A stretch of 64,000 nucleotides of DNA from Suipraeoptans intestinalis (GTDB lineage: Bacteria; Bacillota; Clostridia; Lachnospirales; Lachnospiraceae): positions 693,001 to 757,000 of the forward strand of contig NZ_VULY01000018.1 in assembly GCF_009696485.1 (NCBI RefSeq). The letters are read 5' to 3'. Shown one piece after another: positions 41,004 to 59,196 of this stretch (positions are counted from its first letter, which is position 1; each line of letters opens with the position of its first letter). The notes under the pieces were generated by a model. The model was not told the DNA's origin. It ran no database searches and saw nothing but the letters and a program-made list of their open reading frames with translations. A program made the position numbers and the translations under genes.

Positions 41004-41073
41004 TTTGTTCTCCTTTTCCTCGTCTTATTCTGTTGTTTCTTTCCCGATTTTATCACAAACACCAAAGCGGTGT

Positions 41074-42651
41074 CTAATGGAAGTTCACCCGGTTCAGTGC
41101 TTCCATCTGCGTCCGGATCCAGGGAGCATCCCTTTCGTCGCACATGGTAACGATCAGATCGCCTGTTACCAGTCTGGTCTTGCCCTTGGGGATGATCTCC
41201 TCTGTTCCTCTCTTTATGGAAATCAGCAGGCAGTTATCCGGCCAGGGAACCTCTGCCACCTGTTTTCCTTCCATTGCGCCTCCCTGCTCCACCACAAACT
41301 GGGTCAGCAGCTTTTCTCCTTCCTCCGCCGGCGCTTTCGTCCGGCCCTTCACTATCCGTTCCAGAAGGCTTTCGTAGATCGGCTTGGATCCTAAAAGTTC
41401 CGCCGTCACATAAGCTGCCACAGAAACTACCGCCAGAGACAGTAGCTGGCTCATAGAGCCTGTCATTTCAAAAATCAAAATGATCCCTGTCAAAGGGGCT
41501 CTTACAATGGCTGTGAAATAGCCTGCCATGGCAAGGATAATGAAATTGCTGATGTAGCTGCCATCCAGCCCCAGAAGCTGATGACAGATGGTTCCAAACG
41601 CGCCTCCCAACAAAGCCCCCAGCACCAGCAGCGGAAAAAAGATTCCTCCCGGAGCGCCGGATCCAAAGCTGAAGGTAGAAAAAAGGAACCTGCCCACCAA
41701 AAACAGCAGCATGACTCCCACCGTCAATCCTCCTCCGGCCAGGCTGTCGATCAATTTTTGCCCGCTTCCTAATAGTTCCGGTACCCAAAGCGCCAGAAGT
41801 CCGGACAGCAAAAACGGAAGCAGCATTTTTTTTACCGGCGTCTTCAGGGTTCTCCCATACCACTCCTGTACCTTCAGCGTTCCGTGGTTATACAGGACTC
41901 CTCCCGCGCCCAGCACGATCCCCAGGAGCAGGAGCAGCCAGTAATTTTCCAGAGGAATGGCTCGTGTCACCTGAAACCGGAAAACAGAATGGACTCCCAG
42001 GATGGAAGAACACAAAAAATCTGCCGTCAGCGATGCCGTCATGACCGACAGCAGCACAGAAACAGAAAAATTCTTATGGATTTCTTCCAGAGAAAACATC
42101 ACGCCTGCCAGGGGAGCATGGAAGGCCGCCGAGAGCCCGGCGCTTGCCCCGCAGGTCAGAAGGAATTTTTCTTCCGTCTTTCCCACATCCAGTCCTTTTG
42201 CCACACCCTTCCCTGCCATAGCTCCCAGCTGGATGGACGGTCCTTCTCGTCCCAGCGCCAGTCCGCCCAGCATGCAAAGGCTTCCCCCGAGAAATTTGGT
42301 CCAAAGGACCCGATACCAGGTCTGATTGATGGATCCTTGCATCTCTCCTTCGACCTGCGGGATCCCGCTTCCGGAAGCCATCGGCTCCAGAGCCACCAGC
42401 TTTCCCGCAAGTACTGCCAGAAAAAAAAGTGCCAGAAACCATGCGATAACATAGAGAGGCTTTCCTTTTATGAAGGAAACGATCCTGAAAAGCCACTCTC
42501 CCGCCTGTTCCAGACACAATCGATAAAGCAATACTACGACTCCCGCTGCGATCCCCACCAGTATCCCTTCTCCCATAAGGATCGCCGGAAACCGCTGCTG
42601 TCGTCTCACTGTGTGTTCAATACTCTTTTTCTTTCCTCTCTCTCTCACCAC
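41074..42651 (-). CDS. ClC-family chloride channel/antiporter with RCK C-terminal domain
   Basis: 525 residues. The membrane core carries the three ClC selectivity motifs: GSGIPQVEG, GREGPSIQLG with the gating Glu, and GAPGGIFFPLLVLG. After about residue 430 a soluble TrkA-C/RCK_C domain is visible (EGKQVAEVPWPDNCLLISIK, then PKGKTRLVTGDLIVTMCD). It is likely a Cl-/H+ exchanger gated by a ligand. The start is GTG at 42,651; the ribosome site is weak and an internal start is possible. Confidence 0.9.
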   Translation of the reverse strand: MVRERGKKKSIEHTVRRQQRFPAILMGEGILVGIAAGVVVLLYRLCLEQAGEWLFRIVSFIKGKPLYVIAWFLALFFLAVLAGKLVALEPMASGSGIPQVEGEMQGSINQTWYRVLWTKFLGGSLCMLGGLALGREGPSIQLGAMAGKGVAKGLDVGKTEEKFLLTCGASAGLSAAFHAPLAGVMFSLEEIHKNFSVSVLLSVMTASLTADFLCSSILGVHSVFRFQVTRAIPLENYWLLLLLGIVLGAGGVLYNHGTLKVQEWYGRTLKTPVKKMLLPFLLSGLLALWVPELLGSGQKLIDSLAGGGLTVGVMLLFLVGRFLFSTFSFGSGAPGGIFFPLLVLGALLGGAFGTICHQLLGLDGSYISNFIILAMAGYFTAIVRAPLTGIILIFEMTGSMSQLLSLAVVSVAAYVTAELLGSKPIYESLLERIVKGRTKAPAEEGEKLLTQFVVEQGGAMEGKQVAEVPWPDNCLLISIKRGTEEIIPKGKTRLVTGDLIVTMCDERDAPWIRTQMEALNRVNFH

Positions 42652-42871
42652 TTCACACGTCCTCCCTGCCTTCTATTATAAACCAGCCACGTGGCTTGTC
42701 AACGAATGGGACCGCCAAATCTCATTTCTTTTCCCGTTTTCTGTCTGACTTTCCTCTCCGGTTACGGAACCTTCAAAACACCTTTCGCCGGATACAGGTC
42801 TTCTCCTTCAATCGTATCTTCCCTGTTTGAGAGGCTTCCCTTTTGATTTTTTTACTTTTTTCAAATTTTGC

Positions 42872-42900
42872 TTGCTTTTTTCTTCCTGGAATGATACTAT
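42872..42900 (+). promoter_or_regulatory. Promoter of tRNA-Gly
   Basis: TTGCTT (42,872-42,877), 17-base spacer, TACTAT (42,895-42,900), 26 bases before the mature tRNA 5' end. Confidence 0.6.
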
Positions 42901-42926
42901 ACCTTTTGTTGAAAATAATATTTCAT

Positions 42927-42997
42927 GCGGGTGTAGTTCAATGGTAGAACACTAGCCTTCCAAGCTAGATACGTGGGTTCGATTCCCATCACCCGCT
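42927..42997 (+). tRNA. tRNA-Gly (anticodon TCC)
   Basis: 71 bases folding as a full cloverleaf: acceptor GCGGGTG/CACCCGC plus discriminator T, D stem GTTC/GAAC, anticodon stem CTAGC/GCTAG with loop CTTCCAA (anticodon TCC), and T arm with TTCGATT. The CCA is not encoded. It is isolated, with its own promoter and terminator. Confidence 0.97.
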
Positions 42998-43025
42998 TAT
43001 TTTATTGCAATGCAGCTCTTTATAG

Positions 43026-43065
43026 AGGACCGAATCTTTGATGTAAAAAAGGTTCGGCCTTTTTA
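43026..43065 (+). terminator. Terminator of tRNA-Gly
   Basis: The stem AGGaCCGAA / TTCGGCCT (one bulged A) is followed by TTTTT, 29 bases after the tRNA 3' end. Confidence 0.75.
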
Positions 43066-43344
43066 GGTTTCAAAATTTCCTTTTTTGCACAGCGAAAACC
43101 CGCTTGCCATACGGCTCGCGGGCTTCGTTGTTATTATCGTTATCTAAAGGAATGAGAGTAAAGTGCTACACCGTGTTTCACTTCCGGTGTTCACTTTTGT
43201 GAGGGGGATGATAGTTGATGTGTTCTTCAACTATCTGAGTTCATTATAGAAAAGAAATATGTCTAAAGTATGTTCCTTTTCTAAAAGAAATCGAAAATTC
43301 CTTAAGCACCTCTTAAGAATTCCTTGCGTTCCCTCTTCTTTTTC
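43066..43344. other. Intergenic hairpin cluster downstream of the O-acylation operon
   Basis: This 280-bp non-coding gap holds several hairpins: CCCGC-N14-GCGGG near 43,098, ACACCG-N10-CGGTGT near 43,171, and a perfect 9-bp stem GATAGTTGA-N8-TCAACTATC (43,210-43,235). None has a good T tail on the minus strand, though one may end the DHHW operon. I see no gene. Confidence 0.4.
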
Positions 43345-44517
43345 CTAAGAACTCCCGGATTCCACAGGTTTTAAGAATCCGCCGATGTTGTTGTCCTGAA
43401 AAAAAGTATTGCCGCTGTACAAAAACAGCACCTCATTGATCCCATAGGTGTCCATCAGTTCGTCCGCATTTCCCGCATAGTATCTGGGGTCCACCATAAC
43501 GATCTCCTGGTAAAAAGGCGTCAGAAACGGGACAAAGCTGTTGGCAAACGAATCCTTCACCAAAAGCAGTCTCCTGGTATTTTTCACATCGGTTCTAATG
43601 TCCAGCAAGGAATAATTTCCTCCCTGGAAAACCTGATATCCGTTCTGGGTATCCAACTGCTTTTCGTCATAGAGAGAGGTCCGTTTTTTCTGATTTTCAA
43701 CATAACTGACAACATACTTTGTATGGTCTTCCTTGGGAAGATACAGCTCTATCTTTTCCTTTTCTCCCCTTCTGAAGCCGCTGGTCTTGGAAAGAGCTCC
43801 ATTAAACTGCGTCGTTACCGGATATTTCTTGTAGGCGCTTTCATCCAAAGGCAGCTCCGCCTCTTTCCCATATTCCAAAAAAGCATAAAAAACGCCCGTG
43901 CCGGTCCAGTGATGGTCCGTTTTATAATAGATGTTCTCCTCCTTGTGATCCTCCATCACCCGCTGTGCCTCCACCCAGCGGATTCCCGGAGACAGTTCTT
44001 CCCGGACGCCCTCGATCATATCCGTCTGGCTGGCCTGACGCACCAGAGGCGGCAGCTTCTCCTGCAAGATCTCTCCCGCATCCGGCACCAGCATCATGCG
44101 CATCGTCACCTCCGGATATCTGCCCTGAAAATCATTCATTCCCCGGACGGTATTCTCTACATACTCTTTTTTCGGCGGTTCTATTTTTTCCAGCAACTGT
44201 CCGTTTTTTCCCAGATAGACCCCGTTTTCTTCCCGGTTTCCGCCGATTCGCTTTAAGGAGGCGTGAAAAATTCTCCAGACACTTCGCCCCACAAACTGAT
44301 CGGATACATATGCTTCGTACTTTTTCATAAAATTTCCCGACAACACGCCGTGGAAGGTCAGCTCCGGTCTTTGTGCCAGCGTCCGGTTTTCTTCCTCCGA
44401 GATCTTTTTATCCCGGATCACAGGCCCCAGCACTGCCAGCGCCAGTATTACTGTCAAAAAAATGATGCCTACTCGTTTATTTCCCCTTTTCATTGCTTTG
44501 ATCCCTTTTCCTTGCAC
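43345..44517 (-). CDS. DHHW/AlgJ-like cell-surface acyltransferase accessory protein
   Basis: 390 residues. One N-terminal membrane anchor (about 16-31, IIFLTVILALAVLGPVI). The external domain resembles AlgJ/AlgX SGNH-like proteins, with the DHHW motif YYKTDHHWTGTGVFYAFLEY near residue 200 and LLLVKDSFANSFVPFL (a GDS-like serine) near 320. These proteins pair with MBOAT acyltransferases to transfer acetyl groups to extracellular polysaccharide. It follows the MBOAT gene by 6 bases. Confidence 0.85.
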   Translation of the reverse strand: MQGKGIKAMKRGNKRVGIIFLTVILALAVLGPVIRDKKISEEENRTLAQRPELTFHGVLSGNFMKKYEAYVSDQFVGRSVWRIFHASLKRIGGNREENGVYLGKNGQLLEKIEPPKKEYVENTVRGMNDFQGRYPEVTMRMMLVPDAGEILQEKLPPLVRQASQTDMIEGVREELSPGIRWVEAQRVMEDHKEENIYYKTDHHWTGTGVFYAFLEYGKEAELPLDESAYKKYPVTTQFNGALSKTSGFRRGEKEKIELYLPKEDHTKYVVSYVENQKKRTSLYDEKQLDTQNGYQVFQGGNYSLLDIRTDVKNTRRLLLVKDSFANSFVPFLTPFYQEIVMVDPRYYAGNADELMDTYGINEVLFLYSGNTFFQDNNIGGFLKPVESGSS

Positions 44518-44523
44518 AAACAG

Positions 44524-45930
44524 TTAAAATCTAAAATACAAAAACGGATTAAATGTACTGGACACCAGGCAGGACAATGCCACCAAAAATATCCCGGCAT
44601 ACAAAGACAGCGCCATCCATCGGGGATTCCCCTCATACTTGTCACTGTTCAGCAGCCAGACTGCCGCCGGTGTGCTTCCGATGATACAGCACAGAAAAAG
44701 CAGCCAATTGGATGCCAGATAATAGACACTCATACTATCCAGTACGCCTTTACTTCCCACTCCAAACAGGATCCCGATATAGCGGATGGCTCCCTGCAGG
44801 CTGTCACTGAAAAAGAACACCCAGCCGATCAGCACCACTGCCAGCGTATAGATCCTCTGCATCCATCCGGAGCCTCTTTCCAGCGCGTTGCCCCACACAA
44901 ATTTTTCCAGGATCAAAAATACTCCGTAGTACAGTCCCCAGAACAGAAAGTTCCAGGCCGCCCCGTGCCAGAACCCTGTCAGCGTCCACACGATCAGAAG
45001 ATTGATGATCTGCCGTTTTCCGCCTTTTTTGTTGCCTCCCAAAGGGATGTACACATATTCCCGGAACCAGGTTCCCAAAGAAATATGCCATCTTCGCCAG
45101 AACTCGGTAATGCTTCTGGACGTATAGGGATAATGAAAATTTCTCCGAAAATCAAAGCCAAACATTTTTCCAAGTCCTATGGCCATGTCCGAATATCCGC
45201 TGAAATCAAAATAAATCTGAAGTGCGTAGGCCACCGCCCCTATCCATGCCGTCAGCACATAGGCGGTTCCCTCCTGCAAGAAGCTGCCATGGATCATGTC
45301 GAAGACTGCGCCGATCCCATTTGCAAGAATCACTTTCTTTCCCAGTCCAATAATGAAATACCTGGCTCCTGCCCCAAACTTTTCCAGAGATTCCTTTCTC
45401 TGGGCAAGTTGCTTGTCTATGTCAATGTAACGGACGATAGGCCCTGCGATCAACTGGGGAAACATGGAAATGTACAAGGCAAAATTCATCACATGCTTCT
45501 GCGGCTTTACTTCTCCCCGGTAAATGTCAATGAGATAGGAGATCGCCTGAAAGGTGTAAAAGGAAATCCCTATGGGAAGCGCGAGTTTCCTGTAAGGAAG
45601 AGGAACCGGAGAAATCTGGTTCCATATCCCTGCAAAAAAGCCGGAATACTTGAAAAATCCCAGCAGCGCCAGATTTGCAGCCAGTGCAAAGACCAGCTCC
45701 CGTTTCCCGGATCCTCCCGCCTCTTTGGCCAGATAGATATCCCTTCCACAGACGTAATTCAACAAGATGGACAACAGCATCAGCCCGATATAGACAGGTT
45801 CTCCCCATGCATAAAAAACCAGGCTGGCCAGCAGCAGCACCACATTTTTCAGACGCTTGGGAGCAATGGCATAAGCCAGCAACGTTATCGGAAAAAATAC
45901 GAACAAGAATGTCACACTGCTAAATAACAT
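44524..45930 (-). CDS. MBOAT-family membrane O-acyltransferase (AlgI/DltB/PatA-like)
   Basis: 468 residues with 10-12 membrane segments. MBOAT signatures are PQLIAGPIVRYIDID, YSDMAIGLGKMFGFDFRRNF, SITEFWRRWHISLGTWFREY and the catalytic His in LTGFWHGAAWNFLFWG. It moves acyl groups across the membrane for O-acylation of a surface polymer. It lies in an operon with a SGNH protein, DUF4358 and the DHHW protein. No dlt genes are present, so teichoic D-alanylation is unlikely. Confidence 0.93.
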   Translation of the reverse strand: MLFSSVTFLFVFFPITLLAYAIAPKRLKNVVLLLASLVFYAWGEPVYIGLMLLSILLNYVCGRDIYLAKEAGGSGKRELVFALAANLALLGFFKYSGFFAGIWNQISPVPLPYRKLALPIGISFYTFQAISYLIDIYRGEVKPQKHVMNFALYISMFPQLIAGPIVRYIDIDKQLAQRKESLEKFGAGARYFIIGLGKKVILANGIGAVFDMIHGSFLQEGTAYVLTAWIGAVAYALQIYFDFSGYSDMAIGLGKMFGFDFRRNFHYPYTSRSITEFWRRWHISLGTWFREYVYIPLGGNKKGGKRQIINLLIVWTLTGFWHGAAWNFLFWGLYYGVFLILEKFVWGNALERGSGWMQRIYTLAVVLIGWVFFFSDSLQGAIRYIGILFGVGSKGVLDSMSVYYLASNWLLFLCCIIGSTPAAVWLLNSDKYEGNPRWMALSLYAGIFLVALSCLVSSTFNPFLYFRF

Positions 45931-45941
45931 GCCCTTCCTCC

Positions 45942-46466
45942 TTAAAGACTTTTTGAAAAAGTATCCCGGTAAACAGAAGCTTTCGGCGACACAGCCAGAA
46001 AAATATAGGTTCCCCGGATGCTGATCTCTGCATGCTCCAGCAATTCCACCTGTTTAGGGGCATACCCTGCGAAATCATTTTTCCGATCTGCCAGTCGTCT
46101 CTCAATGGCCGTCTCTACCTCCTGCACCTGGGATTCCTCTTTCACCTTGATAACCAGAAGCTCCTGTGCGGACATACTGGTGGTCGCCACATAGCAAAGA
46201 ACGCCTTCATAATCTGTGCCGTTTAAACCATAATATCTCTTTAAGCCCTGCTCTCCTGCGTTTTTCAACCTCCGCGTGTCCACTACCTGTTCCATTTCTT
46301 CCTTTACTTTGGAAAATTTCTGGTCGCTCCCTCCCACATAGTGCAGCAGAAAGCCTATATACACGGCGATCCCCAGTATCACTGCGTATTTTAATCCTTT
46401 TACAAGGACTCTCTCTTTTCGGTTTCCCTGCTGCTGCAGCATGTGCTTCACTGAATATTGTTCCAT
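45942..46466 (-). CDS. DUF4358 lipoprotein-like/membrane-anchored protein
   Basis: 174 residues from ATG at 46,466. One N-terminal membrane segment (about 22-43, GLKYAVILGIAVYIGFLLHY). The extracellular DUF4358 domain has VVDTRRLKNAGEQGLKRYYG, YEGVLCYVATTSMSAQELLV and RLADRKNDFAGYAPKQVELL. DUF4358 genes are frequent beside MBOAT/DHHW pairs in Clostridia; the role is unknown. It starts 2 bases after the SGNH stop. Confidence 0.8.
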   Translation of the reverse strand: MEQYSVKHMLQQQGNRKERVLVKGLKYAVILGIAVYIGFLLHYVGGSDQKFSKVKEEMEQVVDTRRLKNAGEQGLKRYYGLNGTDYEGVLCYVATTSMSAQELLVIKVKEESQVQEVETAIERRLADRKNDFAGYAPKQVELLEHAEISIRGTYIFLAVSPKASVYRDTFSKSL

Positions 46467-46468
46467 CT

Positions 46469-47245
46469 TTATAGTCCTGCCCCCTCTACCATCTGCTGCA
46501 GCCATTTGGGATAAAATTCTATTTCAAAGTGATACCCGTCTTCTGCATAATCTGTTTCCTGTGCCAGTCCCTCGTTATCCAAAAAGGCGACTCCCTGTTC
46601 TTTGCACATGCTTCGGATGGCTTCGTTGTAGGGCTGCAGATCCTTATAGGCTTCATTTTCCACCACATCCAGAGACAGTACCGGAAACAGTCCGTTCACA
46701 AAAATCTCCGATTCCGGAAGCGCCTGCTTTAGTTGTATGATAAAGTCTGCGTATTCCTGTCTGAACAGTTCCACGTCTCCGTGCACATGCCCCACATCAT
46801 TAAACCCATAATAAAGAAATACACACCTGGGCTTCAGCTCTGTGACGGTTTCCAGCTGCTTGTCGTAAGAGGTCAGTCCGGTTCCTACTTCTGCCACCAC
46901 ATTCGTACTATCCAGAACGTTGTAGGTAGAAAATCCGGACGCTACCGAATCTCCCATAATGACACACCCCGAAAAGGCCTCCCGGTAATCTCGCTGCGCT
47001 GCCGCACCTTCCCCCTGCAGCTGCTCCTGCCGCACCTTCCGGACAGCGTCTTCCGTTTTTAAAAGATCTCTTTTTTCCAGCTTTTGAAGGAGCTTTCTCC
47101 CCTCCGACACATCCTCTTTCTGTGGGAGCAGAAGCCTGATCCCCATCCCCAAAAGCGCCAGGATCCCCAGAAGTACAAACACGGTCAGAACCTGATATTT
47201 TCTTTTGATCCCCGCTTTGCCCCCGGTCCTTTTCCTGCCCTCCAC
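46469..47245 (-). CDS. SGNH/GDSL-family hydrolase or acetyltransferase, membrane-anchored
   Basis: 258 residues from GTG at 47,245 (GGGAGG 8 bases upstream). N-terminal anchor at about 16-35. The SGNH core has CVIMGDSVASGFS (catalytic Ser), YYGFNDVGHV (block III Asn) and DYAEDGYHFEIEFY (terminal Asp/His). It probably deacetylates or acetylates a surface polymer together with the downstream MBOAT-DHHW proteins. It begins 21 bases after the GTPase-Rae1 fusion gene. Confidence 0.87.
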   Translation of the reverse strand: MEGRKRTGGKAGIKRKYQVLTVFVLLGILALLGMGIRLLLPQKEDVSEGRKLLQKLEKRDLLKTEDAVRKVRQEQLQGEGAAAQRDYREAFSGCVIMGDSVASGFSTYNVLDSTNVVAEVGTGLTSYDKQLETVTELKPRCVFLYYGFNDVGHVHGDVELFRQEYADFIIQLKQALPESEIFVNGLFPVLSLDVVENEAYKDLQPYNEAIRSMCKEQGVAFLDNEGLAQETDYAEDGYHFEIEFYPKWLQQMVEGAGL

Positions 47246-47266
47246 AGCGTTTCCTCCCCTCTTTTT

Positions 47267-49999
47267 CTAATCGATCCGCTCTTTTTTCCCCAAGCGCACT
47301 TCCTCTACCTGACCTGCCAGAGATTCTTCCACCCCATCAAACAGATAGGTTTTTCCTTCCGGTCTGCTCTTTTGATATGCCAGACCCTCTTTTTTGATAC
47401 GAAGAATCTCTTCCAGGAATTCCCGGGAAGAAAGAAGCGTTCCTCCCTGCCCCTGGATGATCACCTGTTCTACCCAATCGGACGTCACCACAGTCACATG
47501 ATGCTTCCTTCCCATCCGATGCACCGTTTTTTCAATATACTGATCCGCCGTCTCTGCCTCTTTGGTATAAACTACAAAAACATTGTGGTATTTTTCTACT
47601 TTTGTCGGGTTTCCCTCCACCTTGTAGGCATCAAATACTGCGATGACCGGAATCCCCCGGTATCCCTGGTAATCACTTAGTACATCCAAAAGCCTCCATC
47701 TTGCCGCACTGATATCTTCCTGCGCCAGTTCCTTCAATTCTTTCCAGGCAAAGATCACGTTGTATCCATCCACCAGAAGGTATTCCTGCACCGGTTCCCG
47801 GGAAGTAGCGTAGTTTCCTGCGGAAACCGTCTGCTGCCGCCTTTCTTTGCCACCGACTCTTCCATAGGTGCGAAGTAAAATCTCTTCCATTTCCTCCTGG
47901 GTGATCTCCCGGTTTCCGGAAACGCTCCTTCCGGTCCTTACGCCCGTACCGGTATCTTCCCCCGGTTTTTGTCTGCCTTCGTCTGTATGAACGTGCATCC
48001 GTTCTTCTGCTTCCTTCCATGATACCGAAATCCCGGATCCCTGACAACAGAAAATCGACCCTGCCGGCCACTCCTTGTCCTCTTCCGGAGAATATCCTGC
48101 CATTTCTATGACCTGTTGCGGCTCCTGACAGGTTCCGTATCCTTCCACCGTCAGAGAACAGCTTCCTCTCCCACCGGTAAACGCCGCCACTTCTCTGGCG
48201 TACTGCTCCAGAGCTGACACCGGCGCCTCTCCCCGGATCAGCACCGTTTCTCCTGCCTGCTCCAGCGGAAAAAGTCTGGCGCCTCTTCGATCCAGATCGG
48301 TCAGGAGCCTTCCTGCATTCTCGGAAGGCGCCTGTATCCACACGCTGTAATAGGGCTCCAGAAGTACCGATCTTGCTTTTAAAAGCCCTTGGCGCAGGGC
48401 CCGTCTTGCAGCCTCCCTGAAGTCTCCGCCCTCTGTATGCCGGATATGTGCCCGGCCGGCTATCAGGGTAATGCGGATATCCGTTACCTCCGCCCCCGTC
48501 AGCACCCCTTTGATCCCTTCTTCTTTGAGAGCTGTTACCACCAGCTTTTGCCAGTGCTCCTCCAGCATATTCGTATCACAATCTCTCTCTATCTCCACTC
48601 CGCTTCCTCTGGGAAGCGGTTCCAGTTTCAGATGTACCTCTGCATAATGCTTCAGCGGTTCAAAATGACCTCTTCCCACCACCGTATCTGCTATGGTTTC
48701 CTTGTAGAGGATGCTCCCTTTTGAAAATCGCACACGCAAGCCGTACTTTTCCTGTATCCATGCCTGCAGGATCTCCACCTGCACCTCCCCCATCAAACGG
48801 ACATACATCTCCTGCGTCTTTCTGCACCACTCCACCTTCAGCATCGGATCCTCTTCTTCCAGTTTCTGAAACGCCTGCAGTACTTCGTGTATGTCTGCCG
48901 TTTCTTCCGCTTCCACCCGGTATTTCAACACCGGCTCCAAAAGGGGGCGACCTTTTCCCTCCTCCCATCCCAGGCCTTCTCCGGCTCTGGTATGGGTAAG
49001 TCCCGTGATCCCGCAAATTTCTCCGGCTGCCGCTTCCTCCTGGCAGGTATATCTGTCTCCCGAATAAATACGGATCTGATGGATTTTTTCTGTGTAAAGA
49101 GTTCCTTCTTCATCCCTGTAGGGAATGGATTCCCGAAGTCCGATCCGGCCTCCCGTGATCCGTACATGGGTGATCCGACTGCCTCTGTCATCTCTTGTGA
49201 TCTTAAAGATCTTTGCTCCAAAGCTTTCCTTCTGCGGAATCTCTGTCTCTTTTTGTCGGGATTCTCCTGTTCCCTTTTCTTTTCCGGCTTTTTCTTTTTT
49301 CTCTTTCTTCGTTTGTGACCAGTCTTTTGTCTGACCATATGTGAAGATTCCTTTCAGGAACGCTTCTGTCTGCCAGAGTTTTAAGGCGGAGCCAAAATAA
49401 CAGGGGATGAGTTTTCTGCTTCCGATCAGCCTCCTGATCGTCTCCGTTTCCAGTCGTCCCGTTTCCAGGTATTCTTCCAGCGCCTCCTCGTCACAGGTGG
49501 CTGCCTCTTCCCACAATTTATCTTCTTCCTTTTGGAAATCTATGCATCCTTCCTGCAATTCCCCGTTTAGCTGTCTTTGCAGCTGTTCCCGGTCAACGCC
49601 CGGAAGATCCATTTTATTGACAAAGATGAACACCGGCACCTGATAAAGTTCCAGAAGGCGCCAGAGGGTTCTGGTATGAGCCTGTACGCCATCCGTTCCG
49701 TTGATCACCAGGATCCCGAAGTCTATCACCTGCAGTACCCGTTCCATTTCTGCCGCAAAGTCCACATGACCCGGTGTGTCCAGAAGGATGATCTGCGTAT
49801 CTCCTTCCTCGATCCGCGCTTCCTTTGAAAAAATCGTGATCCCGCGCCTTCGCTCCAACGCAAATGTGTCCAGAAAGGAATTTTTCTCATCTACCCGCCC
49901 CAGCTTCCTCAAAGCTCCCGCCTGGTACAGCAGGGCCTCTGCCAGCGTCGTCTTTCCTGCATCCACATGGGCTAAAATCCCTGCTGTCAATTTTCTCAT
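47267..49999 (-). CDS. EF-G/TetM-like GTPase fused to a Rae1/YacP-type NYN endonuclease
   Basis: 910 residues. The N-terminus is a translational GTPase of the TetM/TetO class: G1 ILAHVDAGKTTLAEALLY (7-24), G2 RRGITIFSKEA, G3 LLDTPGHVDFAAEMERV, G4 FVNKMDLPGV, then EF-G-like domains II-V to about 640. A low-complexity charged linker (about 655-735) leads to a full NYN/PIN-like domain (739-880): EYLLVDGYNVIFAW, AVFDAYKVEG, YTKEAETADQYIEK, VTSDWVEQVIIQGQGG. The last part matches Rae1 (YacP), which cleaves mRNA in the ribosomal A site. Fusion implies GTP-driven binding to the A site followed by mRNA cleavage. Tetracycline resistance is not implied. Confidence 0.9.
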   Translation of the reverse strand: MRKLTAGILAHVDAGKTTLAEALLYQAGALRKLGRVDEKNSFLDTFALERRRGITIFSKEARIEEGDTQIILLDTPGHVDFAAEMERVLQVIDFGILVINGTDGVQAHTRTLWRLLELYQVPVFIFVNKMDLPGVDREQLQRQLNGELQEGCIDFQKEEDKLWEEAATCDEEALEEYLETGRLETETIRRLIGSRKLIPCYFGSALKLWQTEAFLKGIFTYGQTKDWSQTKKEKKEKAGKEKGTGESRQKETEIPQKESFGAKIFKITRDDRGSRITHVRITGGRIGLRESIPYRDEEGTLYTEKIHQIRIYSGDRYTCQEEAAAGEICGITGLTHTRAGEGLGWEEGKGRPLLEPVLKYRVEAEETADIHEVLQAFQKLEEEDPMLKVEWCRKTQEMYVRLMGEVQVEILQAWIQEKYGLRVRFSKGSILYKETIADTVVGRGHFEPLKHYAEVHLKLEPLPRGSGVEIERDCDTNMLEEHWQKLVVTALKEEGIKGVLTGAEVTDIRITLIAGRAHIRHTEGGDFREAARRALRQGLLKARSVLLEPYYSVWIQAPSENAGRLLTDLDRRGARLFPLEQAGETVLIRGEAPVSALEQYAREVAAFTGGRGSCSLTVEGYGTCQEPQQVIEMAGYSPEEDKEWPAGSIFCCQGSGISVSWKEAEERMHVHTDEGRQKPGEDTGTGVRTGRSVSGNREITQEEMEEILLRTYGRVGGKERRQQTVSAGNYATSREPVQEYLLVDGYNVIFAWKELKELAQEDISAARWRLLDVLSDYQGYRGIPVIAVFDAYKVEGNPTKVEKYHNVFVVYTKEAETADQYIEKTVHRMGRKHHVTVVTSDWVEQVIIQGQGGTLLSSREFLEEILRIKKEGLAYQKSRPEGKTYLFDGVEESLAGQVEEVRLGKKERID

Positions 50000-50152
50000 T
50001 CCCTAACCTCCGTTCTTCCTGCCTACAGTGTACCACGAATCCCTTTCTTTTGTATGAAAAAGATTCCCTTTTATGATTTCAGTTTTTTCTTTTCTCTACA
50101 ATACGATCTTCTTGGAATATTTTTTACTTCATAGGACCTCATTCTCTTTGAA

Positions 50153-50207
50153 CTAAAAAAGCGTCGGACTTCCTGATAGCTGCAAGTCTATCCGATCATC
50201 CGACGCT
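50153..50207 (-). terminator. Terminator after the SIS gene
   Basis: Minus-strand stem AGCGTCGGA / TCCGACGCT (9 bp) with a structured 30-base loop is followed by TTTTTT. It ends the sugar ABC operon and isolates it from the GTPase-Rae1 gene. The rest of 50,000-50,152 shows no feature. Confidence 0.75.
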
Positions 50208-50223
50208 GATTCACATCCCTTTC

Positions 50224-50793
50224 TTACTCTACATTCCTGTGTCTTTCTTCCATTTCATCATGAGAAAGTTTCATTTCTCTCTCCAACATCATAATAAGTA
50301 CGTCATATAAAAGGAATGCATGCTGTTCAAATAAATTCCCCATAGGCTGCATGGAAGGAACTGCTCTTTTATCCGTTCCGTTAAAAACATGAGCCGGTAT
50401 AAACAGTATGCAATCTGCTACAGCATGTACTTCCTCTCCCGGAGATCCTGTTACAACAAGGGTCTTTGCCTGGGCTTTTTTCGCCTGTCTTGTCACATAA
50501 TCCAAATGTCCGATCTTTCCCGATCCGTTTACAATCATACACAGGTCATCTTTATGCATCCCTGGCGTAGTATCATCCCAGATCCAATGAACCGTTTTCC
50601 CTAGATGCATCAATCGCATCGCAAATGCTCTCGCTGCAATTCCCTCTCTTCCTACTCCCAGTATGAAAATGCGTTTTGCCTCTTTCAGTACAGTCATGAC
50701 TGTTTCCAATTCATCTAGATCCTGCTTTTCAAATACTTTTTTGTGCTCCTCTAAAATAGTTCGATATAATTCTTCATACAGTTGTCTGTTCAT
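50224..50793 (-). CDS. SIS-domain sugar isomerase (6-phospho-3-hexuloisomerase-like)
   Basis: 189 residues, single SIS domain: KRIFILGVGREGIAARAFAM (phosphosugar-binding Ser/Gly loop region), VNGSGKIGHLDYVTRQAKKA and LVVTGSPGEEVHAVAD, close to HxlB. HxlB interconverts hexulose 6-phosphates. Here it closes a sugar ABC operon, so it likely processes the imported sugar after phosphorylation. No HxlA-like aldolase or kinase is in view. It is 13 bases downstream of a permease gene. Confidence 0.8.
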   Translation of the reverse strand: MNRQLYEELYRTILEEHKKVFEKQDLDELETVMTVLKEAKRIFILGVGREGIAARAFAMRLMHLGKTVHWIWDDTTPGMHKDDLCMIVNGSGKIGHLDYVTRQAKKAQAKTLVVTGSPGEEVHAVADCILFIPAHVFNGTDKRAVPSMQPMGNLFEQHAFLLYDVLIMMLEREMKLSHDEMEERHRNVE

Positions 50794-50806
50794 CTTCTTC
50801 CTCCCT

Positions 50807-51811
50807 TTATTTCGTACTTGCTTTCAACAGTTTTTTCATGGAATAATTTTTCAACAGATGATTTAACCCCAATACCAGGGTCAGCATAACCCCCCAGATC
50901 AATTTTTGCGTATAGGGAGACAGTGCCATGATAGTAAATGCGCTGGACATAATCTGCATCATTACGATCGCAATCAATACATCTCCTACCTTTCCTTTTC
51001 CTCCGTTCGGATCAATTCCTCCGATCACACAGACAATCAGCGTCTGTAGCAGATAGGAGTCCCCATATCCCACTTTCGCAGAATTCACCCGACTTAAAAT
51101 AATCAGCCCTGCCATTCCTGCCAGTAATCCTGTCAGGATAAATGTCCACATACACATTTTTTCATTATGAATTCCTGAAAACCTTGAAGTTGTCGCATTT
51201 TCTCCATACAGATACAATTTTCTTCCAAATCCTGTCTGCCACAGCACGACTCCTAAAACGGCGGCTGTTATGATAAACACCCAAAAAACAAAGGGAACAT
51301 TTGCAATCAATAATTTCCCCAGCAATGCAAATCCCTTGTCAATCTTCCCTACACTGCTTCCTCCTGTAATAGCCATTCCAATTCCTTTAAACAAAGTCAT
51401 GGTGCCAAGTGTCGCAATCAATGGCGGCGCCGCCGTTTGAGAAATCAAAAAACCATTAAATCCTCCAAACGCCACACTACACAGGATCGCAAGGAAAATT
51501 GCAAACAAAATTCTTGCCGATCCTCCCAGTCCCAAAGCCCATGTTCCGTTCAGAACATACGCAGTTAAAATTGCCACTGTGTTTGCGTTTGCAATAATGG
51601 ATAAGTCAATGCCTCCTATCAGGTTGGATAACATCATCGCCAATGCAAACATCCCAAACTCCGGTATCTGAAATGCCATAGACTGTATATTTCTGGCTGA
51701 ATACATGGAATTTCCAAAGGCAACCCCTGACACCAGGAGTACACACACAGTAACTCCTATCAGAATGCTCCTGTTCAGGTTTTCATTTAGTCGTTTTCTT
51801 AGTTTTATCAT
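50807..51811 (-). CDS. Sugar ABC transporter permease (RbsC/LsrD-like), second of two
   Basis: 334 residues, 8-10 membrane segments. BPD_transp_2 family landmarks are MMLSNLIGGIDLSIIANANT, TAAPPLIATLGTMTLFKGIG and CVIGGIDPNGGKGKVGDVLI. It forms a heterodimeric channel with the product of 51,822-52,811, as in LsrC/LsrD. It starts 10 bases after that gene. Confidence 0.9.
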   Translation of the reverse strand: MIKLRKRLNENLNRSILIGVTVCVLLVSGVAFGNSMYSARNIQSMAFQIPEFGMFALAMMLSNLIGGIDLSIIANANTVAILTAYVLNGTWALGLGGSARILFAIFLAILCSVAFGGFNGFLISQTAAPPLIATLGTMTLFKGIGMAITGGSSVGKIDKGFALLGKLLIANVPFVFWVFIITAAVLGVVLWQTGFGRKLYLYGENATTSRFSGIHNEKMCMWTFILTGLLAGMAGLIILSRVNSAKVGYGDSYLLQTLIVCVIGGIDPNGGKGKVGDVLIAIVMMQIMSSAFTIMALSPYTQKLIWGVMLTLVLGLNHLLKNYSMKKLLKASTK

Positions 51812-51821
51812 GGCCAGTCTC

Positions 51822-52811
51822 CTACTCCGTGAAAATCAGATTTTTTCTGTTTTTTACCTTCTCCTGCAGGGATGTAATAGCAACAGACATTACAAGAATC
51901 GTTCCAATAAACAAATTATTCCAGGAAGCCGATAATCCGATCATAATGAGAGTCGTATTTAGAAGATTGATGATCAAAACTCCCAGAACAGCCCCCAAAA
52001 CTTTCCCTTGTCCTCCTGTAATCTTTGTCCCTCCGATCACAACTGCTGCTACAACGATCAATTCATCTCCTACCAGTTTGTTCGGATATAAAGCATTCGT
52101 CTGCGCAACATAAAGAATTCCCATAATTCCCGCTAAAACCCCCGAGTATGCATAAACGAACAAACGAATCTTTGCCGGATCAAATCCAATCCGTCTTGCA
52201 GATTCCTCACTGTTTCCAATTGCAAAAATCCCTCTTCCTACCATAGTCCTGTGTAGCAGAAACCATGTGACTCCTCCAATACATATCACCGGTATCACTG
52301 CTGCCGTAAGTTTTGCATCACCTGCTTCCAAAATCGCCAGACTTCCAAATCGATGAATACTCTTGGGAAGCACCCCTGCTCCGAACGATCTGTCTCCTAT
52401 AAAAGTTGTCATAATTCCATGAAACAAATTTTGTGTTCCCAGCGTGATGATAAATGGCGGCAATTTCAGCCAGTTGATCAGTCCTGCATTTATGAGTCCC
52501 AATGCTCCGCCTATCACAGAGGACAGGAAAAAAGCAAACCACAGATGGTCGATTCCTGTCTGTATCATAATATTGATCGCCGTATAACTTCCAAACAATG
52601 CGATGGACATAAAAGAAACGTCAATTCCTCCCGAGATCATTACAACCAGCAGTCCTATCGTCACGATCATCATAGTTGAAGCAACCCTTGCAATATCAAA
52701 AATCGTTTCTGCCTTCAAGAAGGAGGGATTTTTTGCTGCAACAAAAATGCTGTATACTATTACAATAATCAGCAATACTGCCTGAAACCTGTCTATCCTT
52801 ACCCGCTTCAT
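51822..52811 (-). CDS. Sugar ABC transporter permease (RbsC/LsrC-like), first of two
   Basis: 329 residues with the same fold as its neighbour: VVMISGGIDVSFMSIALFG, LPPFIITLGTQNLFHGIMT and AVVIGGTKITGGQGKVLGAV. Its ATG overlaps the ATPase stop by 4 bases. Two distinct permeases with one ATPase match the Lsr/Rha-type layout rather than the ribose type with one permease. Confidence 0.92.
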   Translation of the reverse strand: MKRVRIDRFQAVLLIIVIVYSIFVAAKNPSFLKAETIFDIARVASTMMIVTIGLLVVMISGGIDVSFMSIALFGSYTAINIMIQTGIDHLWFAFFLSSVIGGALGLINAGLINWLKLPPFIITLGTQNLFHGIMTTFIGDRSFGAGVLPKSIHRFGSLAILEAGDAKLTAAVIPVICIGGVTWFLLHRTMVGRGIFAIGNSEESARRIGFDPAKIRLFVYAYSGVLAGIMGILYVAQTNALYPNKLVGDELIVVAAVVIGGTKITGGQGKVLGAVLGVLIINLLNTTLIMIGLSASWNNLFIGTILVMSVAITSLQEKVKNRKNLIFTE

Positions 52812-54322
52812 ACAATCGCCTCCTTCCTTTTTTGCTGTCCGATCAGAGCCTCCATCTCACTCTCTGATTTTTCTCTTAGATCTTCCTCCTCTAACATGCA
52901 GGAGCATTTTCCATCTGCAAGTATCATAACCCTGTTGCAGTTTGCCAAAATTTCCTGAACTTCATCCGAAATTAAAATAATCGCCATTCCTTCTTCTGCA
53001 AGACGATGGATTTGCTCATAAATCTCTGCCTTAGACCCTATATCGATCCCGACTGTCGGGGTATCCATAATGAAGATTTTAGGTTGAGTAGCAAGCCATT
53101 TCCCAATAACAGCCTTCTGCTGATTTCCCCCGGACAAAGTCCCTATGATCGTTTCCTCGGAAGGAGTTCTGACCTTTAGTTTCTGTATAAACTGTCTGGC
53201 TGTTTTTCTCTCTTCCTTTTTATCCAGCCTTCCTTTCCTCACAAGCCTCTTTATAATCGCAGAGGAAATGTTTTCCATTATCATTCGATTCATAAAAAGT
53301 CCCTGCACGGACCGGTCTTCCGGAAGTAGTGCAATTCCATACTTTTTAGCGGCGATTGGCGATGTGATCTTGCACTCTTTCCCTTCCACTTTTACGATTC
53401 CGCTATGACTGGGATTCAGCCCAAATAAAGAAAGCGCCAATTCGGTTCTTCCTGCTCCCAGAAGTCCTGTCACTCCCAAAATATCTCCTGACCGAAGGGA
53501 GAAAGAAATATCTTGGAACTGCCCATTCCTTGTAAGATGTTCTACTTCCAAAACAGGGGTGTCATTCTTTGTCTTTCTTTCGTACCTTGGGTACTCTACT
53601 TCCCTTCCCGTCATATAATAGGACAGGCTTTTCTTGTCCAGTTCTTCACTTTTAAAATCTCCGATCTTCTCCCCATTTCTGAAAATCGTAATCACATCTG
53701 CAACAGAAAATACTTCATCCAATTTGTGACTGATAAATACAATAGACATTCCCCTTTTCTTCAGCTCTACCATAATATTCAGCAGTCTGTCTACTTCTGT
53801 TTTTGTCAAAGCAGTGGTAGGTTCGTCCATGAATAAAATTTTACATTCCTGCGCCAGTGCTCTGCAGATTGCCACAATCTGCCTGTTGGCCATGGAAATT
53901 TCTTCCACCGGTTGTTCCAGATCCAATTGAACCCCTATTCTGTTCAAATGTTCTTTTGCTATCTTTCTGACCCTTCTCCAGTCCAAAAGTCCTGCTTTTT
54001 CATTTTTCAGTTTTCCAATAGCTATATTTTCTTCCACCGTCAGATGCGGAAATAACGACAGATCCTGGTAAATAACCTGGATTCCTTCCCTCATTGCCTG
54101 TGTCGGTGTCAACTGGTCATAATTCTTCCCATTTACAATAATTTTTCCGCCATCAGGTACATACACTCCGGAAAAGCATTTTACCAAAGTAGATTTTCCA
54201 CATCCATTTTCTCCGGCCAGACAATGGATTTCTCCCTGTTTTATTTGAATCGTAATGTCTTTCAATGCCTGTACTCCAACAAAGGACTTACTGACCTGTT
54301 TCGCTTCTAAAATCGTTTCCAC
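52808..54322 (-). CDS. Sugar ABC transporter ATP-binding protein (RbsA/LsrA-like)
   Basis: 504 residues from GTG at 54,322, with GGAGAAGG just upstream; longer starts add 38 residues unlike the family. It has two ABC domains. The first has Walker A CLAGENGCGKSTLVKC, signature ISMANRQIVAICRAL (degenerate), and Walker B CKILFMDEPTTAL. The second has GLLGAGRTELALSLFG (degenerate Walker A), TLSGGNQQKAVIGKWL and FIMDTPTVGIDIGSK (Asp-Thr instead of Asp-Glu in Walker B). That asymmetry is normal for this class. It energises the two permeases that follow. Confidence 0.93.
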   Translation of the reverse strand: METILEAKQVSKSFVGVQALKDITIQIKQGEIHCLAGENGCGKSTLVKCFSGVYVPDGGKIIVNGKNYDQLTPTQAMREGIQVIYQDLSLFPHLTVEENIAIGKLKNEKAGLLDWRRVRKIAKEHLNRIGVQLDLEQPVEEISMANRQIVAICRALAQECKILFMDEPTTALTKTEVDRLLNIMVELKKRGMSIVFISHKLDEVFSVADVITIFRNGEKIGDFKSEELDKKSLSYYMTGREVEYPRYERKTKNDTPVLEVEHLTRNGQFQDISFSLRSGDILGVTGLLGAGRTELALSLFGLNPSHSGIVKVEGKECKITSPIAAKKYGIALLPEDRSVQGLFMNRMIMENISSAIIKRLVRKGRLDKKEERKTARQFIQKLKVRTPSEETIIGTLSGGNQQKAVIGKWLATQPKIFIMDTPTVGIDIGSKAEIYEQIHRLAEEGMAIILISDEVQEILANCNRVMILADGKCSCMLEEEDLREKSESEMEALIGQQKRKEAIV

Positions 54323-54448
54323 CCTTCTCCAATCCTTTCTGTATTTTGTAAACACCCGGAATGCTAAAAGGTACATTCCAGAATCGCAGACAGTTGTCAA
54401 GGCCTTGCATAGTCGCAACTTTTCTCTTATCGCCATTACAAAAAGTTA

Positions 54449-54470
54449 CTGCCCGAACTCTGTCGGGCAG
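54449..54470 (-). terminator. Intra-operon terminator after the sugar-binding protein gene
   Basis: An 8-bp stem CTGCCCGA / TCGGGCAG with a 6-base loop is followed on the minus strand by TAACTTTTTG. It sits between the binding-protein stop (54,485) and the ATPase, and probably lets the binding protein be made in excess through partial readthrough. Confidence 0.8.
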
Positions 54471-54484
54471 CAGTTTTTCATTTG

Positions 54485-55528
54485 CTAGAACTTATAGTCG
54501 TTAATATTTTCTGCTGTAAACTCAAGAGGTGCGTTTCCGTATGCCACTCCATCCTTTACTTCTATCGCATCATATCCTGTGATCTTCAGATCTGTTCCCG
54601 TTTTAATCTCCTGCCCTGACGCCAAGAGGTATGCTGCGTAACAGGTAGCATATCCCGCATCCGCCGGACGCCATGCCAAGCCCGCCTGCATCGATCCATC
54701 TTCCAAATAGGTTGCCGACATACTGGGAAGTGCCAGTGATACTACCTTGACTTCTTTTGCCTTATTTTTTTCCTGCAAAGCTTCGCAGATTCCTCCTCCA
54801 TGTGCGGAGCAATCAAAGAACCCTGCTATATCCGGATAGGTTTTTAAGATTTCAAGCGTCTTGTCATGAGCTCCTTCTACACTGTTTCCATCCTCATAAG
54901 GTTCTTTTGTTACACATTCCATCTCCGGATAATTCTCAGTAATGTAGTCCACTGCCGACTGGTACCATTCCATATGGGTTTCCATCGTCAGACCGCCTAC
55001 AAATCCCGCATACTTTCCTTTTCCACCCATTGCTTTTGCCAGTTTTTCTCCGAACAATTCTCCAAAAGTTTTATTCACGAACGCTTCCACATCCAGATCT
55101 ACCGTATCTGCTATTCCCGGCGCTTCATGCGACACTACTACAATCCCGGCTTCTTTTGCTTTCTCAATGGTCGGGATCAATGCAGACGGATCGTTGGGAA
55201 CGATACAGATAGCATCCACCCCCTGTGCAATCAGATCTTCCATAATGGAAATCTGACTTGCTGCGTCTCCCGTTTCCGGAACCTGCACCGTCACATTCAG
55301 ACCGGTATCCTTTTTTAACTGCTCTACTCCTGTCGCCATGTCATCAAACCAGGAATCACTTTGTTTGACAATCATAACCACTTGGTAATCTTCCGGATCT
55401 GCACTCTTGTTTTTAGAATCCTCCGTTTCCTTTGTAGACGCGGTCTTCGTTGTACTTGTGCTGCATCCCATAAGTAATGTGGATAACATCCCTATGCACA
55501 CCAGCATTGAAACAAACTTCTTTTTCAT
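54485..55528 (-). CDS. Sugar ABC transporter substrate-binding lipoprotein (LsrB/RhaS-like)
   Basis: 347 residues. Lipoprotein signal MKKKFVSMLVCIGMLSTLLM ends at a lipobox LLMGC (Cys 22). The periplasmic-binding-protein type I fold (Peripla_BP_4) shows VVMIVKQSDSWFDDMATGVE, DLIAQGVDAICIVPND and EAGIVVVSHEAPG. The C-terminal ENINDYKF resembles LsrB/RhaS proteins. It captures a sugar outside the membrane; the ligand is not predictable. AGGAGG precedes the ATG, and the gene is divergent from the YesM-like kinase that probably controls it. Confidence 0.9.
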   Translation of the reverse strand: MKKKFVSMLVCIGMLSTLLMGCSTSTTKTASTKETEDSKNKSADPEDYQVVMIVKQSDSWFDDMATGVEQLKKDTGLNVTVQVPETGDAASQISIMEDLIAQGVDAICIVPNDPSALIPTIEKAKEAGIVVVSHEAPGIADTVDLDVEAFVNKTFGELFGEKLAKAMGGKGKYAGFVGGLTMETHMEWYQSAVDYITENYPEMECVTKEPYEDGNSVEGAHDKTLEILKTYPDIAGFFDCSAHGGGICEALQEKNKAKEVKVVSLALPSMSATYLEDGSMQAGLAWRPADAGYATCYAAYLLASGQEIKTGTDLKITGYDAIEVKDGVAYGNAPLEFTAENINDYKF

Positions 55529-55646
55529 TTTTCTTTCCTCCTATCACGATCTGTTTGATAAGGATATTATATCTGGCTTTCCCGCAAAATCATATAAATT
55601 AAACCGATGCCTTTTTTTAAAAATCCGACTTTTTCCTGTGGCAAAA

Positions 55647-55675
55647 TTGCTTTCATTTTTTCTTATTGTTATAAT
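55647..55675 (+). promoter_or_regulatory. Promoter of the two-component operon
   Basis: TTGCTT (55,647-55,652), 17-base spacer and a perfect TATAAT (55,670-55,675) lie 37 bases before the kinase start. A second TATAAT on the minus strand (55,566-55,571) is suitably placed for the divergent binding-protein gene, but its -35 is weak. Confidence 0.7.
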
Positions 55676-55711
55676 AATCCTCATCAAAATACTGCTGCGA
55701 GGATTTACATC

Positions 55712-59034: not shown

Positions 59035-59045
59035 GAAACACTTAT

Positions 59046-59080
59046 TTGGGGAAGTAAAAAATTCCCTTTTATTCCCCCAA
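59046..59080 (+). terminator. Possible terminator after the response regulator
   Basis: The stem TTGGGGAA / TTCCCCCAA (one bulge) with an 18-base loop lies 12 bases after the stop. There is no T run after it, so termination strength is uncertain. Confidence 0.35.
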
Positions 59081-59196
59081 TCTCCATGCTAAACTAAGAA
59101 GGCATCACCATGCGGAAAGCAGACGCATTCTCGCTGCCGGCAGGATCTGCGATCCTCTCGGCAATATTGATTCTTAAAAGAAGAGAGGTTACATGT

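Follow-up and report, generated by a model that had tools for sequence, protein, structure and literature searches.

Translational GTPases of the elongation factor G (EF-G) type place their domain IV in the ribosomal A site. Tet-type GTPases are described as doing the same (PMC7456112), and Bacillus subtilis Rae1 (YacP) is described as an endonuclease that cuts mRNA in that site (PMC6613710, PMC12320835, PMC10100781). A Tet-NYN architecture was reported from ten clostridial species by Atkinson 2015 (PMC4342817), where RNase-assisted tetracycline resistance was proposed. The present analysis concerns a fusion gene of Suipraeoptans intestinalis (Lachnospiraceae), found within a stretch of 64,000 nucleotides of contig NZ_VULY01000018.1 (positions 693,001 to 757,000; hereafter the window). 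Its product combines a translational GTPase, a linker, and a Rae1/YacP nuclease (Table 1). It probably acts as a GTPase-delivered, ribosome-dependent mRNA endonuclease, the Rae1 of its lineage joined to an EF-G-like vehicle.

The initial annotation, made from the sequence of the window, read the gene as one 910-codon frame at 47267-49999 that held all the G motifs of a translational GTPase and a complete NYN domain. Coordinates and length were exact; the strand, which it left unstated, is minus, and the opposite reading of the interval (+ strand) contains many stops. The motifs are all present, those of the GTPase as AHVDAGKTT (residues 10 to 18), RRGITI (51 to 56), DTPGHVDF (74 to 81), NKMD (128 to 131), and GSALK (203 to 207), and the four that had been quoted for the nuclease as LLVDGYN (741 to 747), VFDAYKVEG (788 to 796), YTKEAETAD (811 to 819), and TSDWVEQ (839 to 845). 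Pfam matched GTP_EFTU at residues 5 to 221 (162.6 bits), EF-G domains III, IV, and V at 355 to 426, 429 to 542, and 545 to 627, respectively, and NYN_YacP (PF05991) at 741 to 902 with 166.5 bits against a cut-off of 24.6, covering model positions 1 to 165 of 166. EF-G domain 2, at 262 to 343, fell under its cut-off (22.4 of 27). In the structure predicted for the whole protein (mean predicted local distance difference test [pLDDT] score, 86.4; predicted TM score, 0.71), the body is EF-G-like, and strands are present in the domain II region. Both halves lay in the same frame in all 20 further fused genes fetched with their flanks (BLAST identity to the window protein, 43 to 51%) and in 77 of the 80 best-ranked named loci (of 595); the other three comprise one locus in two overlapping frames and two truncated at contig ends. 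A chance arrangement or a frame error is therefore excluded.

Sequence matches and the predicted fold identify the C-terminal domain as Rae1, to the exclusion of other PIN/NYN families. The sole convincing matches among PDB sequences were the B. subtilis Rae1 entries 5mq9 and 5mq8 (E value, 4e-26; profile E value, 8e-43), with 36 to 41% identity over the aligned part. Modeled alone, the domain reached a pLDDT of 91.4. Superposition, in which only residues 1 to 149 of this model were aligned, placed it on Rae1 with a Z score of 20.9 and a root mean square deviation of 1.8 Å over 135 residues (Z of 17.8 for the other Rae1 entry), compared with 9.2 for the next listed fold and 7.2 for the NYN domain of MARF1. 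Conservation was assessed in an alignment of 73 proteins (A4), made up of the window protein and 72 named loci (all 74 complete ones except L132 and L185); a further alignment (A5) held 50 of those 72 loci and the window protein. Asp744, Asn747, Asp790, and Asp819 were found in 73/73 and Asp841 in 72/73, the remaining protein (L153) carrying Tyr, while all five catalytic-site residues were present in 21/21 proteins of a second set, also with the window included. The initial annotation had assigned the domain to Rae1 and had named another PIN/NYN fold, or loss of the catalytic aspartates across homologues, as evidence to the contrary; its assignment is borne out as far as fold and catalytic residues go.

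The initial annotation had also raised the questions of how widespread the architecture is and whether hosts carry a stand-alone yacP in addition. The window genome (97% complete, 44 contigs) contains a single NYN_YacP domain, that of the fusion, and no second copy. In a family sample of 150 genomes (one per genus, at least 90% complete), 129 carried the fusion, 6 a separate GTPase and a separate YacP, 2 YacP only, 13 neither, and none the GTPase only. By domain content, the fusion is thus the usual Rae1 of the family and the sole Rae1 of the window genome. The 129 take in a gene in two adjacent frames (G041), two genes split over contig ends (G094 and G172), and G134 and G177. The last two have large frames (690 and 931 codons) with a Rae1 domain and no profile match to GTPase domains IV-V; a divergent or different N-terminal partner is possible. 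A further NYN piece lies at a contig edge in one of the fused genomes (G038), and of the two YacP-only genomes (G006 and G067), G067 gave a weak GTPase-profile match (3e-43) that lies outside the subfamily in the tree. A first survey, not used for the fused counts, had shown NYN_YacP to be present in 352 of 397 family genomes. Some genomes are common to more than one of the family, class, and phylum samples. Among 147 class genomes, 54 were fused (1 in two frames), 4 had separate pairs (from one family), 42 had YacP only, one of them (G522) with a weak, outgroup-type GTPase match, 4 had the GTPase only, and 43 had neither. In the phylum sample (149 genomes), YacP was found in 85 (84 over the cut-off) and the GTPase in 11, and all 11 of these were fused. 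Hosts of the fusion include Anaerostipes butyraticus, Clostridium fessum, Hungatella hathewayi, Dorea phocaeensis, Fusibacter, and an uncultured Faecalibacterium.

Within the family, the two parts also tend to occur together when they are separate. In the 21 non-fused family genomes, a separate GTPase tracked a separate YacP (6/8 versus 0/13; Fisher p, 5e-4, uncorrected for kinship). An E-value-ranked selection, consisting of 13 stand-alone-yacP genomes from the top ranks and 20 listed of 45 match-less genomes, gave the same co-occurrence (9/13 versus 0/20). The broader proposition that the GTPase never occurs without the nuclease held in the family (0/150), failed in the class (4/147), and was dropped as a general claim.

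The C terminus of the nuclease differs between fused and stand-alone copies. Stand-alone Rae1 ends in an LEKxRR-type helix, the signature of which was present in 27/27 sequences; among 92 fused copies, a set outside of which the window protein stands, it was present in 34 and absent from 58. In B. subtilis Rae1, the tail change R166P is described as behaving as a loss of function (PMC6613710), and one of the two Rae1 crystal entries is a W164L mutant. The stretch from the TSD motif to the end was shorter than 55 residues in 22/90 fused versus 0/27 stand-alone proteins; the strict motif was missing in L178 and L190, leaving 90 of the 92 fused copies, and a looser motif counted all 92. In the class sample, the profile match ended before position 158 of 166 in 34/54 fused versus 0/46 unfused copies (p, 6e-13; 33/53 if G466, with a match that stops at 75 of 166, is left out), and in the family sample this was so for 58/129 versus 0/8 (p, 0.02; 54/124 fused without the contig-edge or broken rows G009, G013, G075, G094, and G172), both p values being uncorrected for kinship. 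The tail cut-offs were set after the data were seen, and the hidden Markov model end positions were transcribed from profile listings. In a tree of the nuclease core with the tail removed, the short-tail label needs 10 changes, at least 3 of them required by supported branches. Most simply read, the tail results would mean that the GTPase can stand in for the tail of a lone Rae1, the role of the tail being most plausibly ribosome docking, and tail loss is counted as the most direct evidence in this analysis that the fusion matters mechanically. The rule that stand-alone Rae1 always keeps its tail, which holds for the 27/27 sequences, 46/46 class copies, and 8/8 family copies, fails for 3/73 unfused copies in the phylum sample and was abandoned. 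These three are divergent stand-alone YacP-like proteins of 163 to 177 codons from one family (G598, G557, and G634; f77), with scores of 61 to 66 bits and matches ending at 135 to 140.

The GTPase half appears from its sequence to represent a distinct EF-G-like subfamily of translational GTPases, with the domain IV tip motif HxKHTEGGDF. His518 and His521 of this motif were found in 73/73 fused and 8/8 unfused proteins, and residue 520 is Lys in all compared fused and unfused proteins bar that of the window, which has Arg520; in the alignment, His518 corresponds to His573 of Thermus EF-G. An active GTPase is to be expected, since Lys16, Thr17, Thr55, Asp74, Gly77, and His78 are invariant in 73/73 proteins. 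Lys129 and Asp131 are likewise invariant, and Asn128 of the NKxD motif is replaced by Thr in 8/73. The 50 best Foldseek matches shown for the GTPase model were EF-G/EF-2-type factors and TetM, and the best PDB sequence match was TetO (E value, 6e-74). Eight whole unfused GTPase relatives terminate at the equivalent of residue 668 or no more than about 15 residues from there, and Tyr636, Asp641, Ser648, Phe650, Cys651, and Trp661 of the C-terminal extension are kept in 73/73 proteins. A zinc site was considered for this extension; Cys651 is invariant and Cys624 occurs in 72/73, but the nearby histidines are Gln in the window protein, and the site is unsupported. The host carries further GTPase frames of EF-G length (702 and 708 residues).

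Judged by profile scores and loop residues, the GTPase is not a TETRACYCLINE protector. The closest NCBIfam model to the fusion is the tet_protect equivalog (NF012153), against which it scored 398 bits (cut-off, 775), and its score against the M/W Tet model (NF033148) was 279 bits (cut-off, 1100). Ser508-Pro509-Val510 of TetM, which are described as clashing with tetracyclines, with Pro509 overlapping the bound drug (PMC7456112), align with Ile519-Arg520-His521 of the window protein. At the equivalents of Pro509 and Val510, the 73 fused proteins have Lys (72) or Arg (1) and His (73/73), respectively. On the contig shared with the window, the same host encodes two genuine Tet proteins (639 residues, with a YSPVSTPADF loop), and these exceed both cut-offs (819 and 1284-1285 bits). 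The description of the GTPase as TetM-class in the initial annotation is apt as far as Tet/EF-G likeness goes and does not extend to drug protection. At least one copy of the fusion, from Agathobacter rectalis, is publicly annotated as a TetM/TetW/TetO/TetS family protein. The two Tet(M/W/O/S)-class genes of the host (L262:1936-3855 and L263:1825-3744, near 1.185 and 2.007 Mb of the contig, C37) are closely similar by eye, and their neighbors differ.

The linker between the two halves ranges from 61 to 154 residues (median, 79; 73 proteins, window included) and is variable except for one helix with a consensus of roughly xELxxIFxRTYG, in which Glu703 is kept in 73/73 and Ile707 in 72/73. The unfused GTPases seen stop short of this helix, which may be a docking or hinge element. 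In the mechanism considered here, the GTPase would bind at the factor site of ribosomes that have paused or stalled, and its domain IV would enter, test, or clear the A site. On GTP hydrolysis domain IV would withdraw, and the tethered nuclease would move into the vacated site and cut the codon ("clear, then cut"). After the cut, the ribosome would pass to rescue and the mRNA would be left for decay. The order of these events is the least certain step.

Several observations weigh against this reading. Domain IV and Rae1 are both assigned to the same A site and so cannot occupy it together; a sequential order is therefore favored, and the length of the linker would allow one. The model gives low confidence to the linker and to the relative placement of the domains. 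Four of the 147 class genomes (G463, G423, G420, and G449; loci L208, L209, L210, and L211, respectively) have an unfused GTPase and no NYN_YacP match, so in these genomes the GTPase must serve some purpose of its own and can work without the nuclease. Across the class, unfused GTPase and stand-alone YacP were independent (4/46 versus 4/47; p, 1.0), and co-occurrence thus supports a partnership within the family only. The window protein itself retains the tail, ending VEEVRLGKKERID. Tail release was not seen in the phylum sample, where the match ended early in 1/11 fused versus 3/73 unfused copies, and the tail result is accordingly stated for the class and family only. A tree of NYN domains did not resolve whether the fused nucleases form one group. 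The proposal of a self-delivered nuclease, made in the initial annotation, gains from the loss of the tail in many fused and no unfused copies of the class and family samples and gains nothing from the phylum sample.

Other explanations were weighed against a GTPase-delivered A-site nuclease. The GTPase could instead carry the nuclease to subunits in assembly or recycling, with the nuclease trimming rRNA in maturation or quality control. Several translational GTPases act on subunits, the ancestral neighbors of the nuclease gene encode RNA enzymes (an RNase III domain protein and RlmB), and long, variable linkers would permit a distant target. Anantharaman and Aravind 2006 (cited in Atkinson 2015, PMC4342817) had proposed that the YacP-like NYN domain takes part in the maturation of rRNA and tRNA. 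This is nonetheless rather unlikely, given that B. subtilis Rae1, with the same fold and catalytic residues, is described as cutting A-site mRNA (PMC6613710, PMC12320835, PMC10100781) and that 13/150 family genomes lack both parts, which would be odd for an rRNA-processing step. The length and variability of the linker are also compatible with a loose fusion, in which two independent activities share one chain for coexpression. The GTPase would then work in an EF-G-like manner or in back-translocation, and the nuclease would be an ordinary Rae1. GTPases without YacP exist, as noted, and the phylum sample shows no tail release. We regard a loose fusion as unlikely, because in the class and family samples only fused copies have lost the tail, 77 of the best 80 of 595 named relatives are fused, the linker contains a near-invariant helix, and the separate parts tend to co-occur within the family.

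The fusion might instead protect ribosomes from tetracycline or another A-site drug with the help of an added RNase, as suggested in Atkinson 2015. This would agree with tet_protect being the closest NCBIfam model and with the Tet-type annotation of the A. rectalis copy, and drug-stalled ribosomes could still be a target of the fusion. Such protection is quite unlikely as the function, since the fusion misses both Tet cut-offs that the two true Tet proteins of its host pass, the Ser508-Pro509-Val510 loop of TetM is replaced, and the fusion is the ordinary Rae1 of 129/150 family genomes. A ribosome-bound mRNA cutter could also serve phage defense or an infection-triggered, programmed arrest of translation, and a defense role had been suggested in the initial annotation. 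PADLOC returned only two marginal matches (19.4 and 17.7 bits), on which a defense system was rejected. The scanned neighbors in the window (10 proteins) are transport, cell-surface, and regulatory genes, no neighbor family is shared by more than 5 of 21 fused loci, and the fusion is found in most sampled family genomes; a defense role is very improbable.

The origin of the fusion can be considered from the position of yacP in related genomes. In a Clostridioides difficile record, the gene order is cysS, a gene for an RNase III domain protein (presumably mrnC), thyX, rlmB, a gene for an NYN domain protein, and sigH. MrnC and Rae1 are named together in one region of B. subtilis (PMC8266666). 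A stand-alone yacP lay beside rlmB in 8 of 13 fetched family genes and elsewhere in 5, and the adjacency is thus a habit of Rae1/YacP genes and not a requirement; the window gene does not share it. In 19/19 fused genomes checked, cysS, mrnC, and rlmB were together without yacP, followed by a sigma gene in 12 of the 19 (in the fetched stretch). In the window genome these three genes are followed by pyrH and frr (names of our own reading), again without yacP, and the same cluster lacking yacP was found in four genomes with a relocated stand-alone yacP. In the GTPase tree, 39 fused proteins formed one clade (Shimodaira-Hasegawa-like approximate likelihood ratio test [SH-aLRT] value, 99; a quick method with SH-aLRT support only), and the sister of this clade was the unfused GTPase of a genome (G201) that still has yacP beside rlmB. 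The likeliest history would be a single fusion, loss of the operon copy, and spread by descent, perhaps with some transfer. A mobile or acquired gene was also considered. A tblastn search with the nuclease domain matched 23 plasmid and 12 phage records (ten of each listed), three of which were opened. The plasmid record from A. rectalis is a 252-kb non-mobilizable replicon bearing the fusion, and the phage record carries no annotation. The third, a 97-kb C. difficile "plasmid" record (H8; NZ_CP149721.1), has the look of a chromosome fragment, with cysS, rlmB, sigH, tuf, and ribosomal protein genes.

The fusion gene lies downstream of a transporter/SIS operon (Table 1). Because a probable terminator of that operon sits upstream of the gene, the fusion probably has its own promoter; a simple promoter scan returned zero sites immediately upstream. 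The terminator hairpin was absent from the output of the hairpin scan, as its loop exceeds the loop limit of that scan. An Rfam search of window positions 41000-60000 identified no RNA element or attenuator upstream, the sole match being a tRNA gene. Downstream, GDSL lipase, DUF4358, MBOAT acyltransferase, and DHHW/AlgX-like genes occupy positions 43345-47245 and perhaps form a cell-surface acylation operon.

Table 1. Features of the fusion gene and its surroundings (positions in the window)
Feature	Position	Strand	Remarks
Whole fusion gene: translational GTPase, linker, Rae1/YacP nuclease	47267..49999	-	One unbroken frame, 910 codons and stop
GTPase module: G domain, domains II-V, C-terminal extension	47996..49999	-	Residues 1-668
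Domain IV tip HIRHTEGGDF	48419..48448	-	Residues 518-527
C-terminal extension of GTPase	47996..48130	-	Residues 624-668; common to fused and unfused members
Linker	47786..47995	-	Residues 669-738; low model confidence except one helix
Conserved linker helix EEMEEILLRTYG	47861..47896	-	Residues 702-713 (modeled helix 703-712)
Rae1/YacP NYN nuclease domain	47285..47785	-	Residues 739-905; Asp744, Asn747, Asp790, Asp819, Asp841
Ribosome-binding site GGAGG	50007..50011	-	Read from sequence; 7 nt ahead of ATG at 49999
Hairpin GCGTCGGA...TCCGACGC then TTTTTT, probable terminator of upstream transporter/SIS operon	50155..50206	-	Read from sequence
GDSL-lipase-like gene, downstream neighbor	46469..47245	-	21 nt past fusion stop
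tRNA gene	42927-42997	+	Rfam, 77.6 bits

A literature search that did not extend to the main Rae1 papers found no account of the fusion later than Atkinson 2015, which leaves room for another description in print. What appears new here is that the fusion is the usual Rae1 of the family and the only one of the window genome, that the tetracycline residues are missing, and that many fused copies have shed the Rae1 tail. These results touch on how bacteria outside the model species select stalled ribosomes for cutting: the natural fusion would supply a likely partner of Rae1, a GTPase that reads the ribosome, and GTPase-dead and tail-less versions would separate targeting from cutting. They would also correct an error of naming, since the records list at least one of these genes under tetracycline resistance; if such mislabeling is common, resistance counts in gut genomes and metagenomes would be inflated.

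Rather than as a Tet protein, the fusion is classed here as a variant of Rae1 that would work with an EF-G-like GTPase. With Tet(M) and Tet(O) it shares the five-domain GTPase; it differs in lacking the drug-expelling residues, in its added nuclease, and in scoring under the NCBI cut-offs, and the TetM and TetO alignments end ahead of its C-terminal extension. EF-G resembles it in fold, G motifs, the PGH histidine, and the His at the tip of domain IV, whereas identity is only about 22 to 26% (Foldseek list) and the fusion adds the C-terminal extension, linker, and nuclease. RelE-family nucleases are unrelated small toxins with antitoxins and have no GTPase. The activity proposed for the fusion, mRNA cutting in the ribosomal A site, is one they share (PMC12320835). 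The fused proteins of Atkinson 2015 (PMC4342817) have the same architecture; in the passages of that study cited here, no link to Rae1 is made (the Rae1 paper is dated 2017), and the missing stand-alone copy, the tail, and the tip of fused members are not treated. Closest to the C-terminal half is B. subtilis Rae1, with the same nuclease domain and catalytic acids. That enzyme stands alone and has a C-terminal tail, and its gene neighbors yacO (rlmB), whereas in the fusion the nuclease forms the C-terminal part of a GTPase, is encoded outside the rlmB operon, and in relatives has often lost the tail.

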